Origin: Parahalioglobus pacificus | Lineage (GTDB): Bacteria; Pseudomonadota; Gammaproteobacteria; Pseudomonadales; Halieaceae | Direction of reading: 5' to 3' | Assembly: GCF_014652275.1 (NCBI RefSeq) | Contig: NZ_BMYM01000001.1 | Location: forward strand, 1,426,001-1,490,000 | Length of the DNA stretch: 64,000 nt | Shown: positions 11,731 through 35,346 of the stretch, one piece after another | Position numbering within the stretch: position 1 is the stretch's first letter | Layout: every line of letters starts with the position of its first letter | The notes under the pieces: model-generated | Databases searched by the model: none | The model's input: the letters and a program-made list of their open reading frames with translations, nothing else | Told to the model about the DNA's origin: nothing | Position numbers and translations under genes: made by a program

Positions 11731-11785
11731 AAGATAGCCCATGACGGTGACAGTAATATGACAACGACATGACGTTTTATGACAG
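11731..11785 (-). promoter_or_regulatory. Pho-box-like repeat array and -10 element for the small secreted protein gene
   Basis: Read on the minus strand there are four 7-mers: CTGTCAT (11785-11779), ACGTCAT (11775-11769), TTGTCAT (11764-11758) and CTGTCAC (11753-11747). The spacers are 3, 4 and 4 nt. The last two form a near-consensus PhoB box (consensus CTGTCAT, 4 AT-rich nt, CTGTCAC). Ten nt downstream is TATCTT (11736-11731), a 4/6 -10 element. This is the geometry of PhoB-dependent promoters, in which the box replaces the -35. Confidence 0.65.
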
Positions 11786-19773: not shown

Positions 19774-20433
19774 CTATCGCTTGGCGGCCAAGCGCGCCAT
19801 GAACTCGGGAGCATTCGCCTTCTGGTCAGCATCGATGCGTTCAGCAATGTCGGTGCTCGCCATCAGTTCATCCCACGCTGCCAGCCCGTCGATACTGGCA
19901 AGAATATCCCAGTCCAAATGGGCTTTCCCAACGAGACGAGGAATGGCCAGGGCATAGCGCAGATAGATATCGGCCAGCGTTAGCGTTTCACCGTTCATGT
20001 AAGGGGTGAACGTCGCCAGCGCATTCAGGCCATCAACGCCGCGCTGCAGGGTATTGCGTACCTCTTCCTTGAGCGCTTCAGGCGGCTCCCCGCCACCAAG
20101 GGCAAATGGCAACAAGCGACGTGCCGGCAGTTCAATGTAGAGTTCGGTCAGCTTTATCATTTGCCGCACATGCCCGCGCTCAGAGGCATTTGCGGGGTAA
20201 AGAAGCACCTCAGAATAGGCGTCTTCGATGTAGTCCAACAGTACCGTGCTCTCCGAAAGATTCACGCCGTCTTCGGTGGTCATGGCCGGCACCTTGCCCG
20301 CCGGACTCACCGCAAGCAGTTCTGCCATGTCCGGGTAGACTTTGTTCTCCTCAAAGGCTACCCCTTTGTACAGCAATGCATGCTTGACGATGTTGTAGTA
20401 ATTACTGAATGAGAAGCCGTGAAGTATCAGCAT
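19774..20433 (-). CDS. Glutathione S-transferase family protein
   Basis: A 219-residue cytosolic GST: an N-terminal thioredoxin-like domain (FSFSNYYNIVKHALLYKGV, then the cis-Pro loop AGKVPAM and the glutathione gamma-Glu contact ESTVLLDYIE) and an all-helical C-terminal domain (LTLADIYLRYALAIPRL). Probably conjugates or reduces electrophiles with glutathione; the class is not clear. It starts at ATG 20431-20433 with AGGAG 7 nt upstream. The lipoprotein gene upstream is separated by a strong terminator, so it is transcribed independently. Confidence 0.88.
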   Translation of the reverse strand: MLILHGFSFSNYYNIVKHALLYKGVAFEENKVYPDMAELLAVSPAGKVPAMTTEDGVNLSESTVLLDYIEDAYSEVLLYPANASERGHVRQMIKLTELYIELPARRLLPFALGGGEPPEALKEEVRNTLQRGVDGLNALATFTPYMNGETLTLADIYLRYALAIPRLVGKAHLDWDILASIDGLAAWDELMASTDIAERIDADQKANAPEFMARLAAKR

Positions 20434-20582: not shown

Positions 20583-20609
20583 AAAAAAAAACCGCGCCCA
20601 AGGACGCGG
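20583..20609 (-). terminator. Rho-independent terminator of the TonB receptor-lipoprotein operon
   Basis: In minus-strand RNA a 7-bp stem including one G-U pair (20592-20598 with 20603-20609) closes a 4-nt loop, followed by nine Ts (20583-20591). It lies 32 nt after the lipoprotein stop. Confidence 0.85.
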
Positions 20610-20640
20610 CTAATCTTACAAGAACAGGGTTTTTTTTGAA

Positions 20641-23487
20641 TCAGTCCAGGGAGCCCGGAACAATCCAGCCAGCCCACCAGGCATCTTCGGGGCTTGTGCC
20701 CGGCTCAACGGCACCGATGAAGTCGGTATCGTCGAACTCAAAGCCAGAGCCGTTATCGACGGCAATGATGCCCGGTGCCATTACCGATGCTTCCGCGTCC
20801 GTGATCGCATAAGCCGCGTCCAGAGTCACGCCGGTGTTGGTGTCTTCGCCGGCGTTGTCTGCACTATCGGCGGCACGGCGGCTGTAGAAACCGTCCATAC
20901 ACTCACCCAGCACGTTAACCAGACCCACGGTGGAAGGCACGATGGTCGAACCGTCACCGTTGATATCTGCATCGTCGATGCGCACACAACCATTATCGAA
21001 CTCTTTGACCGCCGTGTTGTAGATGGTGGTGGTCAGGGCACCGCGCAGACGCATGCCTGGCTGTGCACCCGCATCAGAGTCGGGGTTGTTGCTCACATCG
21101 CTACCGATCAGCAGGATATTGGCAAGTACCGCTTCGGTCTCGGGCACGTACTCATCGTCAGACGAGTTCGCCTCGATGCCGCGCGGGTCGTTAGAACCAG
21201 TGGGGCCAGGCTTGTTGGGGTTCTTACGCACAATGGCGTACTGGATGTTGCCCTTGAAGCCTTCGTCGAAGTCGATGTCGTCATCGTCGTTGTTGGTCAG
21301 AACGGCGTAGCGCACGTTCACAGTACCGCCGAACCACTCGATGCCATCATCCAGGTTACCGTGAACCTGCACGTACTCGATGGTGGTGCCATGACCCACA
21401 CCCTGCAGGGTGAGACCATTCACTTCGTTATTGGGACCAGCCACCAGGCCACCCTCGGCGATAACCATATAGCGGATCTCACCGCTGTCGTCCGCGGGGT
21501 CATTACCGCCGTAATTGCCCACGAAGGTACCACCCTCACCGATAACGTTACATACGGTGCCAGAGCCAAAGCAGGGTCCAGTGCCGCCGGCACCGAACTG
21601 GGGTGCAAAGCCCTGAACGAGCACTCCGCCCCACTCACCTTCGCCGTCCAGATCGTCGTCGAGGCTTGAGAACACGATTGGGCTGGCTGCAGAGCCAATG
21701 GCATTTAGCTTGGAGCCGCGAGTAACGATCAGCGAACCGTCGTCGAAGGCCTTAACCTGAACACCAGCACGGATAGTCAGGGTAACGCCCGCATCCTTGA
21801 TAGCTTGCACGTCGGCGTCACCTGCGACTTCACGGTTACCGTCACCGACCACCACGTCACCAGACAGGCGCCATTCGATACCAGAGATCAGCGTGTAATC
21901 CTGGTCGATAGTGCCGGAGAGGGTGCACACCTCGTTGCCGGCATCGCAGCTTACGAAGTCAGCGGGCTCAACTTCTTCTGACTCGCCCACGGTGTCTGGC
22001 AGAGTCCAGCCTTCCCACCAGCCGCTGGAGGCAGCAGGATCAACCGCACCGACGTAGGCAGTCTGGTCGAACATGAAGCCCGAGCCATTGTTGACTGCAT
22101 TGATCACGGGTGCAGAGTCGAGAACAGCTTCGGACTCGTTGATCGCCAGTGTGTTGCTGTAAGTCAGGGTCAGCAGTTCTACATTGTCTTCAACGTCGGC
22201 ATCACGCTTGTTGTAGATACCGTCTCGACAGTCATTGAGAACGTTGATCAGAGACACATTGGAGGGGATGATGACACTGCCGTCGCCGTTCACGTCGGCA
22301 TCATCAATGCGGTGACAGCCTTCGTTGAACTCGGCTACAGACGAGTTGAAGATGCTCACCGTAACCGCACCACGAAGGCGAGTACCCGGCTGTGGACCGG
22401 CATCAGAGTCTTCGTTGTTGTTCAGGTCACTACCAATGATTGTCACGTTGGCAATGACTGCTTCAGTCTCAGGCACGTACTCGTCGTCTGAAGAGTTCGC
22501 CTCAATCGCGCGAGGGTCGTTAGAGCCGGTAGGTGCGTCCTTGTCCTTGGCCTTCTCAACAATCGCGTACTGAATGTTGCCCTGGTAACCCTCATCGAAA
22601 TCGATGTCGTCATCGTCGTTACCGGTCAGTACCAGGTAGCGCGCGTCCACCGTACCGCCGAACCACTCGACACCGTCGTCCAGGTTGTTGTGGACCTGAA
22701 CGTATTCAACGGTAGTGCCATGGCCGACGCCCTGCAGCGTGAGGCCATTCACTTCGTTGTTGGGTCCAGCTACCAGACCGCCTTCGGCGATGCGGACGTA
22801 GCGGACTGTACCGCTGTTGTCGTCAGGCTCATTACCACCGTAGTTACCCACGAAGGTTCCGCCCTCACCGATAACGTTACAGACAGTGCCCTCGCCAAAA
22901 CAGGCGCCTGTGCCGCCTGGACCGAACTGGGGTGCGAAACCTTGTACAAGCACCCCGCCCCACTCGCCGAGACCGTCGAAACCGTCGTCCAGCGAGCTGA
23001 AGGTAATCGGTGCCGCTGCCGTACCGTTGGCTTCAAGTCGCGAGCCGCGAGTGATGATCAGGGAGCCGTCATCGAACGCTTTGATATCCGCGCCCGCTTC
23101 GACTTCCAGCACCACGCCTGCGTCCTTAACTGCCTGGACATCGGCGTCATCCAGCACTTCGCGGTTACCGTCACCGACAACCACGTCGCCGGACAGGCGC
23201 CACTCAACGCCCGCTCCGAGTCGGTAATCTTCAAGTACGGAGCCTGACAGCGTGCCGACTGAACAGTCGTCATTGAACTCGACAAAGTCAGCCTCCACAA
23301 CGGAATCGCAGTCTCCGTCGCCGTCTCCGTCGCCGTCGCCGTCGCCATCACCGTCTCCATCACCGTCTCCGTCGCCGTCTCCACCTGGTGGTGGTACGAC
23401 GATAGTTACGTCGTCACCCTCATCTCCCGAACAACCCACAAGGGTCGTAAAGACAAGGAGGAACGCTATCAATAGCTCTTTCTTCAT
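20641..23487 (-). CDS. Large lipoprotein with two tandem beta-helix-like repeats and a Gly-Asp linker
   Basis: A 948-residue lipoprotein. The signal peptide ends in TTLVGC (Cys19 lipidated; next residue Ser, so outer membrane). A linker of 12 Gly-Asp dipeptides follows. Two copies of a module of about 430 residues come next, roughly 65-510 and 515-948, sharing many identical strings (RLSGDVVVGDGNREV, AFDDGSLI, LEWGGVLVQGFAPQF-like, NEVNGLTLQGVGHGTT, NSSDDEYVPETEAV). Recurring short strands ending in Gly or Asn suggest a right-handed parallel beta-helix. I know such lipoproteins as companions of TonB receptors but not their function. Co-transcribed with the receptor gene 83 nt upstream and hence behind its Pho-box array; a surface partner in substrate capture is plausible. 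Confidence 0.85.
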   Translation of the reverse strand: MKKELLIAFLLVFTTLVGCSGDEGDDVTIVVPPPGGDGDGDGDGDGDGDGDGDGDGDGDCDSVVEADFVEFNDDCSVGTLSGSVLEDYRLGAGVEWRLSGDVVVGDGNREVLDDADVQAVKDAGVVLEVEAGADIKAFDDGSLIITRGSRLEANGTAAAPITFSSLDDGFDGLGEWGGVLVQGFAPQFGPGGTGACFGEGTVCNVIGEGGTFVGNYGGNEPDDNSGTVRYVRIAEGGLVAGPNNEVNGLTLQGVGHGTTVEYVQVHNNLDDGVEWFGGTVDARYLVLTGNDDDDIDFDEGYQGNIQYAIVEKAKDKDAPTGSNDPRAIEANSSDDEYVPETEAVIANVTIIGSDLNNNEDSDAGPQPGTRLRGAVTVSIFNSSVAEFNEGCHRIDDADVNGDGSVIIPSNVSLINVLNDCRDGIYNKRDADVEDNVELLTLTYSNTLAINESEAVLDSAPVINAVNNGSGFMFDQTAYVGAVDPAASSGWWEGWTLPDTVGESEEVEPADFVSCDAGNEVCTLSGTIDQDYTLISGIEWRLSGDVVVGDGNREVAGDADVQAIKDAGVTLTIRAGVQVKAFDDGSLIVTRGSKLNAIGSAASPIVFSSLDDDLDGEGEWGGVLVQGFAPQFGAGGTGPCFGSGTVCNVIGEGGTFVGNYGGNDPADDSGEIRYMVIAEGGLVAGPNNEVNGLTLQGVGHGTTIEYVQVHGNLDDGIEWFGGTVNVRYAVLTNNDDDDIDFDEGFKGNIQYAIVRKNPNKPGPTGSNDPRGIEANSSDDEYVPETEAVLANILLIGSDVSNNPDSDAGAQPGMRLRGALTTTIYNTAVKEFDNGCVRIDDADINGDGSTIVPSTVGLVNVLGECMDGFYSRRAADSADNAGEDTNTGVTLDAAYAITDAEASVMAPGIIAVDNGSGFEFDDTDFIGAVEPGTSPEDAWWAGWIVPGSLD
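23311..23382 (-). repeat. Hexanucleotide repeat coding for (Gly-Asp)12
   Basis: Twelve consecutive 6-nt units encode Gly-Asp. Units alternate among GGAGAC, GGCGAC and GGTGAT (minus strand), so the peptide is exactly repeated while the DNA is not. Confidence 0.9.
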
Positions 23488-23570: not shown

Positions 23571-26500
23571 CTAGAAAAACTGGTAGGTCAGACCCACCTG
23601 AAACGTGGTTCCTGTCTCGAAACTCTCGATGGTGTTGCCGTTCTGCACAAACTCGAACTCATCGTTCAGCAGATTGTTAATCTGCGCACTCAAAGTGAGT
23701 GCTTCGCCAAACATCTTCGAGTAGGTGATGTCGACAATGATCCGGCCGGACTCAATCTCCGGTCCATTCTGCGTACCACGCGCCACACGGAAGATGCGAT
23801 CGTCGAAATAGTTCACCAGCAAGGTCACTTTCTGCTCGGTGGGATAGTGATCGAAACCCAGCTGAACATTTGCCAGCCACTCCGACTGCCCCTGCAGCAC
23901 ACGTCCGTTGGCGGACTCACCCTCGAGACGGATCGAATCTTCCGAGAGCTCCACTTCCGAGTCGATGTAAGACACGTTACCGCCTAGGAACAGCAGGTAC
24001 TCGTCTTCATCGAGCAGGTTCTTGGTGGCATCCAGTTCAATACCGAACAGATCGGCAGAATCCTGGTTGCGGAAGGTGATACCGCGCGCCGCTGAACCCG
24101 ATGCATCCGGAATCGCACGCTCGATAGGCTGATCAATTTCCTTGGCAAAAACTGCCAGAGAAATGCTCTCGGTATCAGAGAAGTAGTACTCGAGACGCGC
24201 GTCCAGGTTTTCAATGGTTGAGACCTGCAGGTTCGGGTTACCGAAAATCGGGTCGTCGGTGAACGGGTCGAAGGAAATCGACTCGGAACGCTCAATCAGG
24301 CCGGGGTAGGAGGCCGTTTCGCTGTAACCGACTCGGAACTGCCAATCGTCCAACGGACGCCAGGTCGCGCTGATCGCCGGGTACCAGTCATCGAAATTCA
24401 GCTCGTTGGATGAATCCGGCTCATTCGGGTAGTCCAGCGTCTGGCTGAAGTCCTCGAAGCGAGCACCGATGCCAAAGAACCAGGCGTCGCCTAAATCAGT
24501 GTTGGCATTCAGGTAATAGGCCTGAATCTCCTCTGTTGAATCGTAAGAATCAGTCTGGGTGGTATTGGCCGCCAGACGGAAGCGGTCCACGACAAAGTTC
24601 TGGTACGACAGGATCTCTTCAAGGTCTTGGTCGATGCCCAGGTCCACGTCTCGGAAATCGCCCTGACGTATGCCGAAACGGTACTGTTCGACGGTACGGT
24701 CTTTGTCGGACCAAAGGAGGCCAGCCTGCAGTTCCGTGGTGTTGTAGTCACCCCAGTCGATCGGCAGCTTATAGTCGAAGCCAAGGTCGATGCTGTCTTC
24801 AACCAGGTCTGACCAGCGCCGCTCAAAGGCCGAGGTCGACAGGTTATTGTTGAAGTAACTGTACTGGCGACGATCCGGCTCGTATCGGTCTGTACGAGAG
24901 TACGCGGCGCGCCAGTCGAATATATGCAAGCCGATATCGGACTCAAGCTCATTATGACCGGTAAACGCCTGGGAGAAGAATTGGCGCTCTACGTATTCGA
25001 GGATCGCGCTGGTGATTGCGTTGCCCTCCCGCCCATCGATGCCCGATTCGAGACGGGTTACATCGTCGGTAGCGCGGAGAATGCTGGTTTTGCTAAGAAC
25101 CTCGTCGGCCAGGCCGTATTCAAGACCAGTCACAAAGTAACCATTCAGGGCCACAGTTTCGCGGGTCCGGCGATACTCACCCTGTGTCTCGAGGGGGTTA
25201 CTCAACTCAGCATCACCACGATCATCGGTCTCGCGGCTGTAGTTGAGTGCGCCGTAGTAGCCCCACTCATTGTCGCCGGCAGGCAGGCGATCACCGTAGG
25301 CCCACCCCGCACTAACGTCTGGCAGGGCCTGCTTGTCACGAACGTTGTAATCATCCTGGAACTGCACAGCCAGCGCCGCGGCATCCAGCTGTGACGTACA
25401 GCGCTCAGGGTCAATCGCGGGATCACAGATTGTCAGTGACTGACCGCCGTCGGTGGCATTCACAACACGGTTGGGTAGGTCGCGTAAACCGTTGTCAAAG
25501 CCCAGCCACTCGGTCTCGCTGGAGCGATGCGCCAAGACGTCATCGCCCGTGAAATCGAAGTTATACGCGAGGTCGCCGGAGACCTGGTTGATCTTCTCGT
25601 CGGGGAGGCCCTTGGTATTGATCTTGATGGAGCCGCCCGTGGTCGTTGCCAGCTGATCGGGCGTGTAGGACTTCTGGATTTCGATGCCGCCCAGAATATT
25701 GGTCGGGAACAGGTCCAACTGCACGTCGCGGCGCTGCGGGTCGGTACTGGGCATCAACAGGCCGTTCAGTGTTGCCGAGATATACCGTCCGTCCAGACCG
25801 CGTACGGTGGCGTACTTACTGTCTGTTACCGATACACCTGCCACACGCACCAGGGCTGAGGCGACATCGCTGTCGCCGAAGCGCTGCAGCTGTTCGATAT
25901 CAATCGCGTTGGTGATGGAGGTCGCGAAGCGCTCAATGCCCTCTGAGGTGTCGGTTGGGTTGAATACGCCGAGAACAACAACCTCTTCCAATTGCGTGGA
26001 TGGCAGCTGTACCGCCACAGCGTCACTCTCAGCGGCGTACATAGTGACGCCAGCCGTAACGCCGGTGTCGGCAAGCACGCGCACATTGGGAATGTCGACT
26101 GACCGGTAGTCCGGTGCAACTACACGCACATCGTAGGCGCCGCGCGGAAGCTCCAGCACGTAAACGCCATCGCTATCAGTGGCTGTGCTTGCATCGACGC
26201 CCTCGGCAATGATGTTGGCGCCGACCACGGGGGCGCCCACGGTATTTTTCACCGTGCCGGTAATAAACCCTGTCGCTGCAACGTCACCTACCGCAAAGCG
26301 TTTTACGCTGACGACAGGCTCATCACCTGTGCTCGCTGTGAAAGTGACAACAATCTCCACGTCCTCATCGGCGCCGGAACTGAAAGCAACAGGGAAGGTC
26401 AGGTCATCGTCCGACAAACCCAACACGTGCTCGCCGGCAGTCAGCGGTGCTGAGATGCGGCCATTGCCATCAGTTTCGCCGATGGGTGTGTCGTCCAGGG

Positions 26501-26621
26501 TCACCGTGACTCCGCGCAGGGGGGCCTCGTCCAGGAAAACCATAAGGTATGCATCGGCGGCAATAGCGCGGGATGCAGTAAAGAGCAGCAGTAGTCCTAG
26601 CGTAACTGCGATTTTCTTCAT
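23571..26621 (-). CDS. TonB-dependent receptor with N-terminal carboxypeptidase-regulatory-like domains
   Basis: A 1016-residue outer-membrane receptor. Signal peptide about 1-21 (KKIAVTLGLLLLFTASRAIA); two Ig-like/carboxypeptidase-regulatory-like domains, about 22-100 and 115-200 (FITGTVKNTVGAPVVGANI); a TonB-box-like LEEVVVLG; a plug (VRVAGVSVTDSKYATVRGLDGRY, TPDQLATTTGGSIKI); and a barrel ending in YQFF. Substrate unknown. The ATG at 26619-26621 is chosen over the upstream-extended frame because it places the signal peptide at the N-terminus. It is first gene of an operon with the duplicated lipoprotein and lies downstream of a four-repeat Pho-box array, so I infer PhoB control and possibly a role in acquiring a phosphorus-containing nutrient. 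Confidence 0.9.
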   Translation of the reverse strand: MKKIAVTLGLLLLFTASRAIAADAYLMVFLDEAPLRGVTVTLDDTPIGETDGNGRISAPLTAGEHVLGLSDDDLTFPVAFSSGADEDVEIVVTFTASTGDEPVVSVKRFAVGDVAATGFITGTVKNTVGAPVVGANIIAEGVDASTATDSDGVYVLELPRGAYDVRVVAPDYRSVDIPNVRVLADTGVTAGVTMYAAESDAVAVQLPSTQLEEVVVLGVFNPTDTSEGIERFATSITNAIDIEQLQRFGDSDVASALVRVAGVSVTDSKYATVRGLDGRYISATLNGLLMPSTDPQRRDVQLDLFPTNILGGIEIQKSYTPDQLATTTGGSIKINTKGLPDEKINQVSGDLAYNFDFTGDDVLAHRSSETEWLGFDNGLRDLPNRVVNATDGGQSLTICDPAIDPERCTSQLDAAALAVQFQDDYNVRDKQALPDVSAGWAYGDRLPAGDNEWGYYGALNYSRETDDRGDAELSNPLETQGEYRRTRETVALNGYFVTGLEYGLADEVLSKTSILRATDDVTRLESGIDGREGNAITSAILEYVERQFFSQAFTGHNELESDIGLHIFDWRAAYSRTDRYEPDRRQYSYFNNNLSTSAFERRWSDLVEDSIDLGFDYKLPIDWGDYNTTELQAGLLWSDKDRTVEQYRFGIRQGDFRDVDLGIDQDLEEILSYQNFVVDRFRLAANTTQTDSYDSTEEIQAYYLNANTDLGDAWFFGIGARFEDFSQTLDYPNEPDSSNELNFDDWYPAISATWRPLDDWQFRVGYSETASYPGLIERSESISFDPFTDDPIFGNPNLQVSTIENLDARLEYYFSDTESISLAVFAKEIDQPIERAIPDASGSAARGITFRNQDSADLFGIELDATKNLLDEDEYLLFLGGNVSYIDSEVELSEDSIRLEGESANGRVLQGQSEWLANVQLGFDHYPTEQKVTLLVNYFDDRIFRVARGTQNGPEIESGRIIVDITYSKMFGEALTLSAQINNLLNDEFEFVQNGNTIESFETGTTFQVGLTYQFF

Positions 26622-26719: not shown

Positions 26720-26775
26720 ATCCTATGAGGCGGAAGTGACAGAAATGTGATTGAAATGTGTCAGTTGTGTGACAA
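26720..26775 (-). promoter_or_regulatory. Four-repeat Pho-box array with -10 element
   Basis: Read on the minus strand four 7-mers recur with exact 11-nt period: TTGTCAC (26775-26769), CTGACAC (26764-26758), CAATCAC (26753-26747) and CTGTCAC (26742-26736), separated by AT-rich 4-nt spacers. The PhoB consensus is CTGTCAT/CTGTCAC with a 4-nt spacer. Ten nt downstream of the last repeat is TAGGAT (26725-26720), a 4/6 match to a -10. The array lies 115 nt upstream of the receptor's start codon. Confidence 0.75.
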
Positions 26776-26891
26776 GAGCGCAGCATGCAGGACGAGGCAA
26801 CAACGCTAAGTCGCTCACAGATCAGCTGAATGAATCAATAGCAGGAACAGGCCCACACAAGTGCGGCACCTGCATTACCATGGTGTGGCGA

Positions 26892-30713: not shown

Positions 30714-32540
30714 TTACTGGAGCGAAAATACGCCATCGTTCAATAGCGCATCAATTTTGAGAAAGGCATCCACCGCGTGCTGGGTGGAATCGACACGCAC
30801 ACGATTGTTTGCGACGCTCACCCGCAACGCGCCCTCCACACAGTCTCGGCAAGGCACGAAGTACATACGCTCGCCGCGATACTGCAAGTTGTCGAGATTG
30901 GATAACGCCATACGCAGTGCATCCGAATACAAGCTAACACGCAGGTCGTCGCCCTGCTGGTGGGCTGTGTGCAACGCGTGCGCCACCCCCTCCATATACA
31001 CCGCGTCGGAGCTTGCGTGCGGGCTGCCATACTGGGGTGTTTCCGGATTGTAAAAGCGGCCCCGATACTGCGGATGAGATGCACCCGAGTCCAATAGCTC
31101 CAGCAACTTATCGGTGAGCGTGAAAACAGCCGCCGGATACCGTTCATCACCAGTCAATGCATAGAGCGCACGCAGCGATTGCACATGCCAGGGCACATAG
31201 GCCGGGTAATAGTTTTCTTCCAGGTCATCCACATAGCGCTGCAGATACACATCCTGCAAAGCCACCGTCCTGGCCAGTACTGGCGCATCATCCGCTCGCT
31301 GTGCGTACTCCGCCAGCGCCAGCAGCGCCTCACCACTGTAAAACGTGAGTAAGCGCTGCTCATCGAAAGCGTAGTCCGGTTCTATATACCAGGCCCGAAA
31401 CCCTTGTCTGCCCGCATCCAGAGAAAGAATACCGTTCACTAATGCGCGCGCCTGCTCGGCATACTCTTCATAGAAGGGGCTGTACACCAACGTGCGCAGC
31501 GCCATGGCCATCGCCCCCAATTTGGACTTGTCCCGAAAGACGATGTAGCCCTCGCCGTTCGACTCCCAGTACCAGTGGGTGAACATGTAGTTCAGATTGT
31601 CGCGGTGGGCCGCGAGCAGCGCCGGTTGCTCACTCGCGAGCTCCGCCAGCGTTCGTGAGGCCATCAACTGCCTGAGCACATTGTCGCGGGATGCAGGCCA
31701 TCGATCGCGTGCAGGCAAGTAGAGATACCTGAAGTCGCCCGATGGCTTTTGAGACGCGAGCAGCCACTGCTGTGCCCGGTTGCCTAACGCCCTGTAGTCG
31801 TCATGATTGACGACCGCATCGGCAGAGAAAGTGTTGCCCATGGCGTACTTGACCACCTCAGAGCCCGCCCCCGAAAAGTGGTCGACCCGGTAGTAGTAAC
31901 GGCTGATAGCCGATTCCGTGCTACCGGCACTAATCAGCGATCCGTCGATCACTTGCAGTAGTTTCTCCTCGCTGAGGTTGGCCTCCACCGCATAAGCACC
32001 GTAGTAGTTAGCCGTGGCCTCGGCCATCACACTGAGCCCATGCAGGCCGTGGATATAGCCACCGCCGGTCATAGGCCTGTCTCTACCCATCACGTGCAAA
32101 TGGATATCAAGCTCATCCGCTGTCGCTGCCCTACTCAACTGCGTCGTATCCGCAAGCCTGGCGGCTTTTTCTGCGGCGCTCAAAACGTTTTGAGTAAGGC
32201 TTTTCCCATGCGCCCAGGCTGACGCAATTCGCTGCCTCTGATGCCAGGCCACTACGTAGACACGATGCTCCGCATCGGCGAGCACCGGCTGAATCGCCGC
32301 ATCGCTTTGGCCGGTCCCAGTCATTGCGTCCAGTAGAGATGCCCGCGCGAGCGCCAACAATTGTTGCCTCTGTGTATCAGACAATCGCGGCAACTCATGT
32401 GCGGGCCCCGCAAAGGGGCTGGGCGTTGATGTCACAGAAGTCTGCCCCCAGGGCAGGGACAGTTGACCTGACACCGCCAGAACCACCAGCGAAAGCAATC
32501 CCGCATAGATAAGCACGCGTAGCACGCTGGCTTTGGTCAT
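30714..32540 (-). CDS. Membrane-anchored or secreted protein with an alpha/alpha-toroid-like C-terminal domain
   Basis: A 608-residue protein that I cannot assign to a characterised family. The start at ATG 32538-32540 gives an N-terminal anchor/signal (VLRVLIYAGLLSLVVLAVSGQL), so it acts in the periplasm. Residues about 55-170 weakly resemble an AMMECR1-like domain (ending TADELDIHLHVMG). From about 200 on, helical pairs with Trp/Tyr-rich loops (TFYSGEALLALAEYAQR, PAYVPWHVQSLRALYALTG, ASSDAVYMEGVAHALHTAH) suggest a six-hairpin toroid as in glycoside hydrolases, epimerases or terpene-cyclase-like proteins. It is divergent from the SutA-like/OlsF/PlcP genes, with which it may share regulation. 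Confidence 0.7.
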   Translation of the reverse strand: MTKASVLRVLIYAGLLSLVVLAVSGQLSLPWGQTSVTSTPSPFAGPAHELPRLSDTQRQQLLALARASLLDAMTGTGQSDAAIQPVLADAEHRVYVVAWHQRQRIASAWAHGKSLTQNVLSAAEKAARLADTTQLSRAATADELDIHLHVMGRDRPMTGGGYIHGLHGLSVMAEATANYYGAYAVEANLSEEKLLQVIDGSLISAGSTESAISRYYYRVDHFSGAGSEVVKYAMGNTFSADAVVNHDDYRALGNRAQQWLLASQKPSGDFRYLYLPARDRWPASRDNVLRQLMASRTLAELASEQPALLAAHRDNLNYMFTHWYWESNGEGYIVFRDKSKLGAMAMALRTLVYSPFYEEYAEQARALVNGILSLDAGRQGFRAWYIEPDYAFDEQRLLTFYSGEALLALAEYAQRADDAPVLARTVALQDVYLQRYVDDLEENYYPAYVPWHVQSLRALYALTGDERYPAAVFTLTDKLLELLDSGASHPQYRGRFYNPETPQYGSPHASSDAVYMEGVAHALHTAHQQGDDLRVSLYSDALRMALSNLDNLQYRGERMYFVPCRDCVEGALRVSVANNRVRVDSTQHAVDAFLKIDALLNDGVFSLQ

Positions 32541-32551
32541 AAATCTTTCAC
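32534..32551 (+). promoter_or_regulatory. Degenerate Pho-box-like sequence before the SutA-like/OlsF/PlcP genes
   Basis: TGGTCAT (32534-32540) and CTTTCAC (32545-32551) are separated by AAAT and match the PhoB consensus at 11 of 14 repeat positions. It overlaps the divergent gene's start codon, and the -10 region at the expected distance (TTTCTC) is poor. Confidence 0.25.
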
Positions 32552-32621
32552 CGTAGTGTCGTTTCTCTGCAATCAGCAGCACGCATGCTGCCGCCAATCT
32601 CTTGGTACGGAGCTAATTGAG

Positions 32622-32825: not shown

Positions 32826-34568
32826 ATGTTTGACGTCAAAGAGATAATCCAAACACGGTTCCCAGCATTCTCACAGCGTCATGCCCGCACCGCACGCATC
32901 CTTTCAAGATTTCTATCACTACTGTTTTACGAAACACGTTTCCAGCAATTCGAGCGCAACTACCCTCATTTGGAGGGCTTAGACTTTGTTGAGCAAACAC
33001 TGCGTTACTTCGACTTCAGACTGCGCGTGCGCGAGGACGAGCGCGCACGAATTCCTGCGACAGGTCGCGTTGTAATCGCAGCGAATCACCCCATTGGCTC
33101 ACTGGACGGTCTGTCTTTGCTGCACCTGGTGCGTCAGGTCAGGGCTGACGTGAAAGTCGTTGCGAACGAATTGCTGTCTGAGGTGAAGCCTTTACACCCA
33201 CTGCTGCTGCCAGTGAACAACATGGGCGGGCAGACAGCGCGTAACAACCTCAAAAACATCAAAGCGCACCTGGAGTCAGAGGGTGCGCTGATTATCTTCC
33301 CTGCCGGTGAGGTATCACGTCTGGGGTCCAAGGGCGTCAAGGACGGTGAGTGGCACAGCGGATTTGTGAAGATGGCTCGCACCGCGGGCGCACCGATTCT
33401 TCCCGTTTATGTTGCCGGACGTAACTCGCTATTTTTCTATAGCCTGTCTGCGCTTGCTAAGCCACTTTCCACACTCTGGCTTATTCGGGAGATGTTCAAG
33501 CAGAGCCATAACACCATCGATGCGCGAATAGGCAGACCCGTTACGCAAGAAATCTACGATGCTAACCAGTTCTCTGCGAAGCAACTTGCTCGGATGTTCC
33601 GCAAACATGTGTACCGCATGGCGCGGGATGGCAAGCCAATTTTCCGCTCTGTTGATACTGTCGCCGCGCCCGAGAACAGGCAACTCCTCAATCGGGAACT
33701 GCTTGCCAGCGAACGCTTGGGACAAACTCGGGACGGCAAACATATCTACCTGTGCAGAATGGGCAGTGCCCCATGCGTGATGCGTGAAATTGGTCGCTTG
33801 CGAGAAATTGCTTTTCGCAGCGTAGGCGAAGGTTCAGGGCTGCCCAGGGATATCGACCGATATGATGCCACCTACCTGCAACTGGTGTTGTGGGACAGTG
33901 AGGCCCTGGAGATCGCCGGTGCCTATCGCATCGGTGATGCCAAACAAATTATCGCACGGCAGGGGCTCGACGGGCTGTATACGCAGTCGCTTTTCCGTTT
34001 TGGCGAGAGCACAGTGCCTTATCTTGAACATGGCCTGGAGCTGGGACGCAGTTTTGTGCAACCCCGGTACCAGAACAAGAACAGCCTTGACTACCTCTGG
34101 TATGGAATCGGTGCCTACCTTGGCAAATACCCCCATTATCGCTATTTGTATGGGCCAGCCTCGATCAGCCGCTACTATGGTAGGGAAGGCATTGCCATGC
34201 TGGCCCACTACTTCTCCGGCTATTACAACAGTCTCCCCGTGGATGTGTCAGCCCGAGATCCGTTCGTCGTCGACGCAGAACTCAGCGAAAAGCTGGCGCG
34301 GACGTTCTCCGGTGAACATCGGGAGCAGGACTTCAAAACCTTGAAGCGCGCGCTCAAAGAACGCGGGCTACCTGTTCCACCGTTGTATAAACATTATTCT
34401 CAGGCGACAGATACCGACGGCGTTACTTTCACGGCTTTCAATATTGATCGTGATTTCGGTGATTGTGTGGACGGATTTGTAATCGCAGACCTGGAACGTC
34501 TCACTGAAAAAAAACGGCAACGCTATCTCTCAGGGGAGGATAACGACAATGGAGGCAATACGGACTGA
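32826..34568 (+). CDS. olsF: OlsF-like bifunctional ornithine lipid synthase (fused acyltransferases)
   Basis: A 580-residue cytosolic or membrane-associated protein with two acyltransferase domains. Residues about 80-260 are PlsC-like: AANHPIGSLDG (the NHPxGxxD form of the catalytic motif), LIIFPAGEVSRLGSKGVKDG and ILPVYVAGRNS. Residues about 310-500 are a GNAT-like domain of the OlsB/COG3176 type: MREIGRLREIAFRSVGEG, YDATYLQLVLWD, GLELGRSFVQPRYQ and LYGPASISRYYG. This order and length fit OlsF, in which the C-terminal half N-acylates ornithine with a 3-hydroxyacyl group and the N-terminal half O-acylates the product. Ornithine lipids are phosphorus-free. The 3' end overlaps the PlcP-like gene by 20 nt. 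Confidence 0.78.
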   Translation: MFDVKEIIQTRFPAFSQRHARTARILSRFLSLLFYETRFQQFERNYPHLEGLDFVEQTLRYFDFRLRVREDERARIPATGRVVIAANHPIGSLDGLSLLHLVRQVRADVKVVANELLSEVKPLHPLLLPVNNMGGQTARNNLKNIKAHLESEGALIIFPAGEVSRLGSKGVKDGEWHSGFVKMARTAGAPILPVYVAGRNSLFFYSLSALAKPLSTLWLIREMFKQSHNTIDARIGRPVTQEIYDANQFSAKQLARMFRKHVYRMARDGKPIFRSVDTVAAPENRQLLNRELLASERLGQTRDGKHIYLCRMGSAPCVMREIGRLREIAFRSVGEGSGLPRDIDRYDATYLQLVLWDSEALEIAGAYRIGDAKQIIARQGLDGLYTQSLFRFGESTVPYLEHGLELGRSFVQPRYQNKNSLDYLWYGIGAYLGKYPHYRYLYGPASISRYYGREGIAMLAHYFSGYYNSLPVDVSARDPFVVDAELSEKLARTFSGEHREQDFKTLKRALKERGLPVPPLYKHYSQATDTDGVTFTAFNIDRDFGDCVDGFVIADLERLTEKKRQRYLSGEDNDNGGNTD

Positions 34569-35346
34569 CGGTAAGATTAGCTGCCGTACTTTATGGATTT
34601 CAGACGTACACCTGGGCAGTGTACACAGCAAAGCAGAAAGCCTGCTGCAGTTGCTCAAGCGCGTGGAATGCGAGCGCTTGTATCTGGTCGGCGACATCGT
34701 CGATGTGTGGGCGATGCACAAACGTGTCTATTGGCCTGAGGCGCACAATCGGGTACTGCGACAAATACTAAAAATGTCCAAACGTCAGGTGGACGTTATT
34801 TACATCCCGGGCAATCACGACCAAAACTTCCGCGAGTTCTGCGGCAGCGAATTCGGCAACATCACCATACACAAACAGGTGGAGCACAAGACGCTTGCTG
34901 GCAAGCGTATGCTGGTGATGCACGGTGATGAATTCGATTATGCCGTTCGCTACTCACGCCTGAATCGCTGGATCGGCGACATTGGCTACGATCTACTGAT
35001 GTGGTTCAACCGGTATATCAATCGCGCCCGAGAAGCACTGGGTAAACCCTATTGGTCTCTGGCCAAATGGGTAAAGGTCAATATTTCACAGGCTGGCGAT
35101 GCCATACTGGCCTACCAGCGGGCAGCTGCCCACTTTGCCCGCGACAACCGCTTTGACGGAATCATCTGTGGTCACCTGCACTATCCTGTTATCAGCGAGA
35201 TCGACGGGGTGACGTACTGCAACGACGGCGACTGGGTCGAGAATTGCACCGCTTTGGTTGAAGATTGGGAGGGTGCTCTGCACCTGGTGAAAGGGTTACC
35301 CGTTATGGAAGATAGTTCGGAACTGGTGCTGGCGAAGGCGCAATAA
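34549..35346 (+). CDS. PlcP-like metallophosphoesterase (COG2908)
   Basis: A 265-residue calcineurin-like phosphoesterase: SDVHLG (metal ligands), YLVGDIVDVW, PGNHDQNF, MHGDEFD and CGHLHYPV supply the two-metal site. Automatic annotation would say LpxH, but GKPYWSLAKWVKVNISQAGD, WPEAHNRV and CNDGDWVENCTALVEDWEG are features I associate with PlcP. PlcP is the phospholipase C that removes head groups from membrane phospholipids during phosphate starvation in marine bacteria and rhizobia; this family call is from memory. Its start (ATG 34549, after GGGGAGG) lies inside the olsF-like gene, a 20-nt overlap implying coupled translation. The pair could replace phospholipid with ornithine lipid. Confidence 0.75.
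   Translation: MEAIRTDGKISCRTLWISDVHLGSVHSKAESLLQLLKRVECERLYLVGDIVDVWAMHKRVYWPEAHNRVLRQILKMSKRQVDVIYIPGNHDQNFREFCGSEFGNITIHKQVEHKTLAGKRMLVMHGDEFDYAVRYSRLNRWIGDIGYDLLMWFNRYINRAREALGKPYWSLAKWVKVNISQAGDAILAYQRAAAHFARDNRFDGIICGHLHYPVISEIDGVTYCNDGDWVENCTALVEDWEGALHLVKGLPVMEDSSELVLAKAQ

Follow-up and report, generated by a model that had tools for sequence, protein, structure and literature searches.

A 64,000 nt stretch of contig NZ_BMYM01000001.1 of Parahalioglobus pacificus (positions 1,426,001 to 1,490,000), here called the window, contains a gene for a predicted surface lipoprotein made up of two similar modules, directly downstream of a gene for a TonB-dependent receptor (Table 1). The lipobox LVGC, recognised by eye, corresponds to residues 16-19 of the 948 aa lipoprotein, and the modules are 435 (A) and 439 (B) residues long. 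An earlier reading of these genes, made from the letters alone and referred to here as the sequence-only reading, had described two modules on one lipid anchor with a long acidic linker; the (Gly-Asp)12 tract occupies residues 36-59, ahead of module A and not between the modules, which are joined by 8 residues. The lipoprotein matched no family at the cut-off in Pfam, NCBIfam or PHROGs, with no SusD family domain found by Pfam or NCBIfam, and had no match by sequence in the PDB. A search of its own genome returned it as the sole copy. The genome also gave no match for Slam-type surface export, though nothing follows from this as the control matched nowhere either. The terminator-like hairpin 3' of the lipoprotein gene is one of 9 such sites in the window, where 5.1 were expected.

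Table 1. Features of the lipoprotein-receptor locus and of a nearby gene pair (window coordinates)
Feature	Coordinates	Strand	Evidence
Terminator-like hairpin with T-run, 3' of lipoprotein gene	20590..20611	-	Terminator scan
Two-module surface lipoprotein gene, 948 aa	20641..23487	-	Single open reading frame (ORF), translation
Module B, residues 510-948, predicted right-handed beta-helix	20644..21960	-	Self-alignment, model, structure matches
Inter-module linker, 8 residues	21961..21984	-	Self-alignment
Module A, residues 67-501, predicted right-handed beta-helix	21985..23289	-	Self-alignment, model, structure matches
(Gly-Asp)12 acidic tether, lipid anchor to module A	23311..23382	-	Sequence
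Signal peptide and lipobox LVGC (Cys19)	23431..23487	-	Sequence
TonB-dependent receptor with CarboxypepD_reg-type domain	23571..26621	-	Plug, barrel and CarboxypepD_reg matches
Four tandem PhoB-like half-sites, 11-bp period, 24/28 matches	26736..26775	-	Half-site score, best in window
OlsF, bifunctional ornithine lipid synthase	32826..34568	+	782 bits vs cut-off 620
Calcineurin-like phosphoesterase	34549..35346	+	Family scan

The receptor gene ends 83 bp upstream of the lipoprotein gene, on the same strand. The ATG at 26621 is the likelier receptor start, because with the listed ORF start at 26786 the PhoB-like sites would fall within the gene's coding part. The central claim of the sequence-only reading, that a beta-helix lipoprotein with an internal duplication is paired with a TonB receptor, was borne out by two aligned modules, a beta-helix model and a receptor gene directly upstream. 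The pairing is also conserved. A scan of genome contigs gave 68 loci with a relative of the lipoprotein, and a receptor relative ending no more than 1.3 kb upstream on the same strand was found in 61 of the 63 loci with at least 1.5 kb of upstream sequence, the other five being too short and left out.

The half-sites upstream of the receptor gene were scored against a PhoB half-site consensus, with a maximum of 28 for four half-sites. The window reached 24; simulated windows (20 in all) gave at most 20 and simulated upstream stretches (30 in all) at most 18. Scores of at least 20 were obtained for 37 of 60 receptor upstream stretches, the window's included, and for only 20 of the 1169 stretches of these loci that served as controls. 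The 60 are those in which the receptor N-terminus could be aligned and the DNA was long enough, others having been dropped, and some are near-copies of one another. The genome encodes PhoB (above the cut-off) and PhoU, and the same kind of site is present approximately 60 bp before its phoB gene (13/14 for the best pair, 20/28 for four half-sites).

Phosphate genes recur beside some of the relatives; neither this context nor the PhoB-like sites had figured in the sequence-only reading. Clusters resembling PstS, PstA/C, PstB and PhoU were found on the receptor side of the lipoprotein gene in 13-15 loci; in one of these (L061), Pfam identified PBP_like_2, DUF3333 with BPD_transp_1, ABC_tran and PhoU, all on the same strand. 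DUF3450, ExbB, ExbB, TonB and TPR clusters are on the opposite side in 10-14 loci, of which one (L086) was checked by Pfam. Both the phosphate (phoB-phoR) and the TonB-ExbB links are present in a single row in Alteromonas macleodii pBGP9, which is annotated as phoB, phoR, a phosphate substrate-binding protein, an oxygenase, a 4071-nt module-matching gene and the receptor, followed by DUF3450, ExbB, ExbB, ExbD, TonB and TPR. The record has three places that match the module. Another arrangement, lipoprotein, receptor, GspC, GspD and GspE, is found in a locus with one module (L137, which also has GspF) and in one with two (L142), and the same lipoprotein-receptor-type II secretion system (T2SS) order is annotated in Sphingomonas parapaucimobilis and Indioceanicola profundi. 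Module B of the window is 35.7% identical to the S. parapaucimobilis lipoprotein over 73%. A hydrocarbon-related role, prompted by several host names, was considered and discarded, as a narrow literature search returned unrelated work and phosphate neighbours emerged instead.

An AlphaFold2 model, built from 34 two-module proteins that included the one from the window, had a mean pLDDT of 88.8 and a pTM of 0.65; the predicted folds of the modules appear firm and their placement relative to each other less firm. In structure searches that included Foldseek, each module matched solved right-handed parallel beta-helices with Z of about 19-22, among them AlgE4, NosD, AlgG, PL6 lyases, tailspikes and Pel9A. 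The predicted beta-helix fold alone names no function. Acidic residues are invariant in both modules in all 34 aligned proteins, the window's included. Examples are D249, D250, E253, D271, D272, D275 and D277 in module A and D692, D693, E696, D714, D715, D718, D720 and E721 in module B (alignment numbering, equal to the protein residue minus 21).

Comparison of modules A and B revealed 69.6% amino acid and 69.3% nucleotide identity over 434 aligned positions, and the blastp score of 575 bits is far above chance, so the halves do align as an internal duplication. However, the suggestion that this duplication might be fairly recent did not survive. Identity at codon positions 1, 2 and 3 is 77, 81 and 50% (49.5% at third positions), and identical residues share a codon in 169 of 302 cases, with 143 expected from codon usage. 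Estimates of dS between the modules, made with an experimental Biopython module, were 1.3 (NG86) or 1.9 (YN00), while its maximum likelihood value of 26 was plainly unusable. As silent sites are near saturation and most proteins in the family have two modules, a recent duplication was ruled out and we conclude from the sequences that the duplication is old. The long identical strings shared by the modules lie in their cores, which look homogenised instead of newly copied.

Relatives of the lipoprotein were found in 71 of 145 related genomes, counting the window's own. Among 70 distinct complete proteins, again including the window's, 47 have two modules, 19 rows have one and four have three; this set was fetched with a two-module query and leans towards two-module proteins, and 16 partial or contig-edge rows had been left out of it. 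Relatives are thus not single-module in general, as the sequence-only reading had stated, nor are all homologues double. Of the 19 single rows, 16 are plain single-module proteins, and the others are half of a frameshifted double gene (L079), a frameshifted fragment (L095) and a B-like paralogue (L072). The latter is a lone B-like module without an adjacent receptor, found in the same assembly as the double gene of L042, and looks like a paralogue that has lost module A. When 397 genomes of the phylum were searched with a profile, 58 gave a match, the window's own genome among them. Two neighbouring matches in equal-length frames were counted in 24 other genomes and three in one (G490); nine of the 24 as well as G490 were checked by direct domain search. 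Twenty of the loci used here (L129-L148) were picked by hand from these profile matches and are no random sample. Judging by these sequences, two modules are the norm within the clade of the window and frequent outside it, and single-module relatives are common too.

Several relatives depart from this picture in other ways. Distant relatives with three modules per ORF (L027-L030) have further module matches nearby in other frames. One contig labelled Flavobacteriaceae TMED48 (L058) grouped in the tree with SAR92/Porticoccaceae modules, which is probably a binning error. A Parabacteroides relative has the receptor first and one module match in a 1644-nt gene. Of 15 plasmid relatives listed, 11 are annotated as hypothetical protein.

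When whole modules were placed in a tree, A and B formed mostly separate clades in the Halieaceae and their neighbours (exceptions L011_A, L017_B and L047_B), while A and B of one lineage were found together in Hydrocarboniphaga, Oceanococcus, Teredinibacter and distant families. Trees of separate regions were made from 86 modules of 43 two-module proteins, picked by hand from 56, with the mosaic L011 not included. In the core tree (columns 81-320), there were 27 A/B label changes compared with a shuffled mean of 29, 129 of 500 shuffles being as low for A, and the cores appear to carry no positional signal. In the ends tree (columns 1-40 and 361-435), there were 10 label changes compared with 29 when shuffled, and none of 500 shuffles was as low. 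Hence, the cores group with those of their own protein, and the ends with those in the same position. Quartet comparisons of the window (L001) with its near relative L002 gave 53 orthologous, nine concerted and no null sites; the concerted sites fall in columns 41-200, with one in 321-360. The corresponding counts were 20, 22 and 4 with L009, 14, 14 and 3 with L012, and 2, 107 and 3 with the distant L139. One protein (L011, from G030) is a clear mosaic, with a core like its own module B and ends like module A of other proteins.

Silent positions point the same way. Within proteins, identical residues in the cores have identical codons at a frequency of 0.580, where 0.471 is expected (excess 0.109), and in the two ends at 0.478 and 0.462, where 0.431 is expected for each (excess 0.031-0.047). 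Between species, the frequency in cores is 0.453 compared with 0.422 expected (excess 0.031), and the excess over codon usage falls in the range 0.022-0.034. Mean identity at 4-fold sites over the 56 proteins is 0.514 in the centre and 0.433 in the ends. As cores cluster by protein, ends cluster by position and the silent-site excess is mainly in the cores, the best explanation of the sequences is an old duplication followed by repeated intragenic conversion of the cores, with the ends keeping their positional identity. The alternative of many independent origins of the second module, in place of one or a few origins and later conversion, draws on the whole-module trees, which pair A and B of one lineage in several distant lineages. 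We regard it as unlikely. In the clade of the window, the two modules mostly form clades of their own, the three exceptions given above aside, the ends tree splits A from B within most clades, and separate duplications would not lift silent identity mainly in the cores.

Taken together, these findings suggest that the pair is, on balance, probably a phosphate-starvation operon encoding a PhoB-controlled, phosphorus-scavenging lipoprotein and its TonB receptor, in which an old duplication has had its cores homogenised by conversion. When phosphate is exhausted, PhoB would bind the four half-sites and drive expression of the receptor and then of the lipoprotein. The latter, lipidated at Cys19 of its lipobox, would be held on the cell surface by the flexible acidic tether, a display suggested by that of ElpS in Caulobacter crescentus (see below). 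Both modules, each retaining the invariant acidic cluster, would capture a ligand that contains phosphorus and hand it over to the adjacent receptor, which would take it up in a TonB-driven manner; the ligand might, at a guess, be an organophosphate or cation-bound phosphate. An old double module with repeated homogenisation of the cores and fixed ends would suit a pair of equivalent working surfaces whose order is fixed.

A number of points weigh against this. Of the 60 upstream stretches, 23 score below 20, those of both Hydrocarboniphaga loci included, and the motif had been noticed by eye before the half-site score was drawn up. A plain scan for two half-sites with up to three mismatches did not list the site and gave six matches in the window with 4.96 expected. 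No pst genes were found among the window neighbours scanned, and no T2SS genes among those scanned by family (which excluded the gene at 19774-20433), although two GspD genes above the cut-off are present elsewhere in the genome. A weak terminator-like hairpin (23598-23582) overlaps the end of the receptor gene and could separate it from the lipoprotein gene. Published phosphatase results for elpS deletion and overexpression leave a role other than ligand delivery possible. On the side of conversion, the ends tree uses 115 columns, with strong support for 11 of its 83 inner branches; the borders of the regions were drawn after the profiles had been viewed and differ between analyses; and the rows are related, making p-values optimistic. 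Identity at 4-fold sites is greater in the centre than in the ends in only 40 of 56 proteins, going by printed values. Taken by itself, the window gene has a 4-fold identity of 0.43 for the centre and 0.47 for the ends, and its identical codons number 162 of 294 (136 expected), with 81 of 132 (64.7 expected) in codons 121-280; silent evidence for conversion in this one gene is weak and not clean.

The likeness of the cores could instead reflect shared selection, if both modules have adapted to one common receptor or ligand without conversion of DNA. The strongly concerted amino acid pattern between clades (the 107 against 2 sites of L001 and L139) would fit this explanation, as would the weak silent evidence in the window gene. 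We nonetheless hold it to be improbable, because core codon identity exceeds expectation by 0.109 within proteins and by 0.031 between species.

A different role for the lipoprotein, as an accessory at the surface or released from it that would activate extracellular phosphatases or serve as their scaffold, follows what has been proposed for ElpS. According to the published account (PMC2996285), overexpression of ElpS raised alkaline phosphatase activity although ElpS itself showed none. The T2SS neighbours of elpS-type loci also speak for such a role. The same account reports that deletion of elpS left phosphatase activity unchanged and did not lower it. In the window's clade, the constant partner is the receptor (61/63), and no phosphatase or T2SS cluster was recognised by eye among the 25 commonest neighbour clusters, most of which had no family scan. 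An accessory of this kind is therefore a doubtful alternative. Finally, each module might be an enzyme (a lyase, epimerase or hydrolase of an acidic or phosphorylated polymer), given that many beta-helix proteins are enzymes, that the best fold matches include the AlgE4 epimerase, PL6 alginate lyases and Pel9A, and that an acidic cluster is conserved, but this is very unlikely, as NosD and phage tailspikes match about equally, leaving the fold silent on function, and no enzyme family was matched at the cut-off.

The OlsF and phosphoesterase genes (Table 1) are about 6 kb from the receptor promoter. Ornithine lipids are phosphorus-free and replace phospholipids in low phosphate. The phosphoesterase might, as a guess, be PlcP-like. 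Relatives of OlsF and/or the phosphoesterase were found in the flanks of eight other loci, two of which have both. A weaker PhoB-like site (32534-32573) that scores 21/28, where the best in 20 simulated windows was 20, lies near these genes, and the 32826-35346 segment with this site is possibly a second phosphate-starvation cluster in the window. A 627-aa ORF at 30714-32597 had no match in Pfam or NCBIfam. One further PhoB-like site (11736-11775, minus strand; 21/28, best pair 13/14) lies between cytochrome P450 and acyl-CoA dehydrogenase genes, on the strand of the latter but approximately 600 nt from it.

Relatives were also found in viral contigs from IMG/VR, at 58 loci (L156-L213, e.g. 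L158:3848-7439, L161:3917-7431 and L196:947-4855) with one matched stretch each. The matches often cover only about profile positions 55-245 of 434, and many are near-copies of one another. Using a lenient motif and no control, a lipoprotein-like start was seen in 53 of 57. A receptor-like gene is adjacent in seven of the 58 loci, perhaps representing five independent cases, as L157/L158 and L159/L160 are apparent near-copies. One receptor-adjacent relative is in a 77-kb contig (L161) that also encodes a terminase. Among 24 viral records searched, four had a terminase and nine a Plug domain. A PHROGs scan of ten proteins (P0001 and nine from the viral contigs) gave no match, so the viral origin rests on the IMG/VR classification and the terminases. 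A metabolic or receptor-shielding role for the viral single-module relatives is a guess.

In much of the sea, growth is limited by phosphate and, to our knowledge, the passage of large or bound phosphorus compounds across the outer membrane is poorly known. The family members scanned have no Pfam or NCBIfam model at the cut-off and no solved structure by sequence, and the PhoB-like sites together with the pst and phoBR links make the role directly testable. Homogenisation of the cores of two domains within one gene offers, in turn, a natural way to test if functional equivalence of the modules has to be maintained. A wider and more tentative proposal is that the pair represents a widespread SusCD-like phosphorus importer in which a beta-helix replaces SusD, which has another fold. 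The modules would offer a single receptor equivalent surfaces for docking or binding, with cores kept interchangeable by recurrent intragenic conversion throughout the history of these families, and bacterial viruses would carry the single-module version with a receptor to feed or shield the infected cell.

The closest known system is ElpS (CC_0170) of C. crescentus, described in PMC2996285 as a palmitoylated, protease-accessible outer-membrane lipoprotein made in phosphate starvation, with the gene order lipoprotein-TonB-dependent transporter (TBDT)-gspC-D-E, the receptor being CC_0171. The Caulobacter PhoB regulon includes the T2SS and various TonB receptors, as stated in PMC11208175. Like ElpS, the window lipoprotein has a lipobox and an adjacent TonB-dependent receptor, and the window module profile matches the lipoproteins of loci in the published elpS order; the link to ElpS (CC_0170) is drawn through these loci. 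ElpS, at about 50 kDa, would have one module by size and, in the published description, precedes its receptor beside the T2SS, while the window has two modules, the receptor first and no T2SS among the neighbours scanned. The T2SS is not found with all homologues.

Other comparisons are more distant. In Flavobacterium johnsoniae, PMC8115612 describes FI, FII and FIII as low-phosphate lipoproteins that are 31-36% identical to the Caulobacter low-phosphate lipoprotein at 50-54% coverage, with two of four low-phosphate lipoproteins encoded downstream of low-phosphate TBDTs and FII coded IPR011050; they are likened to the window lipoprotein through this description. As in SusCD and PusCD, a TBDT is paired with a surface lipoprotein, which in those systems binds ligand, and PusCD is phosphate-regulated (PMC8115612), but the window lipoprotein has a beta-helix model in place of a SusD family match. 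Its predicted right-handed parallel beta-helix is shared with PL6, AlgE and pectate-lyase enzymes, but it had no family match at the cut-off. Long-lasting concerted evolution has been reported for 26 genes in prokaryotes (PMC6053082), likewise involving old duplicates that were repeatedly homogenised. Those cases are between paralogous genes, whereas here two domains within one gene are affected, mainly in their cores. The open-access literature listings consulted contained nothing on a double-module version, a gammaproteobacterial TBDT-beta-helix phosphate pair or virus-borne TBDTs. Overall, the window pair reads as a double-module, receptor-first variant of the little-characterised ElpS kind.

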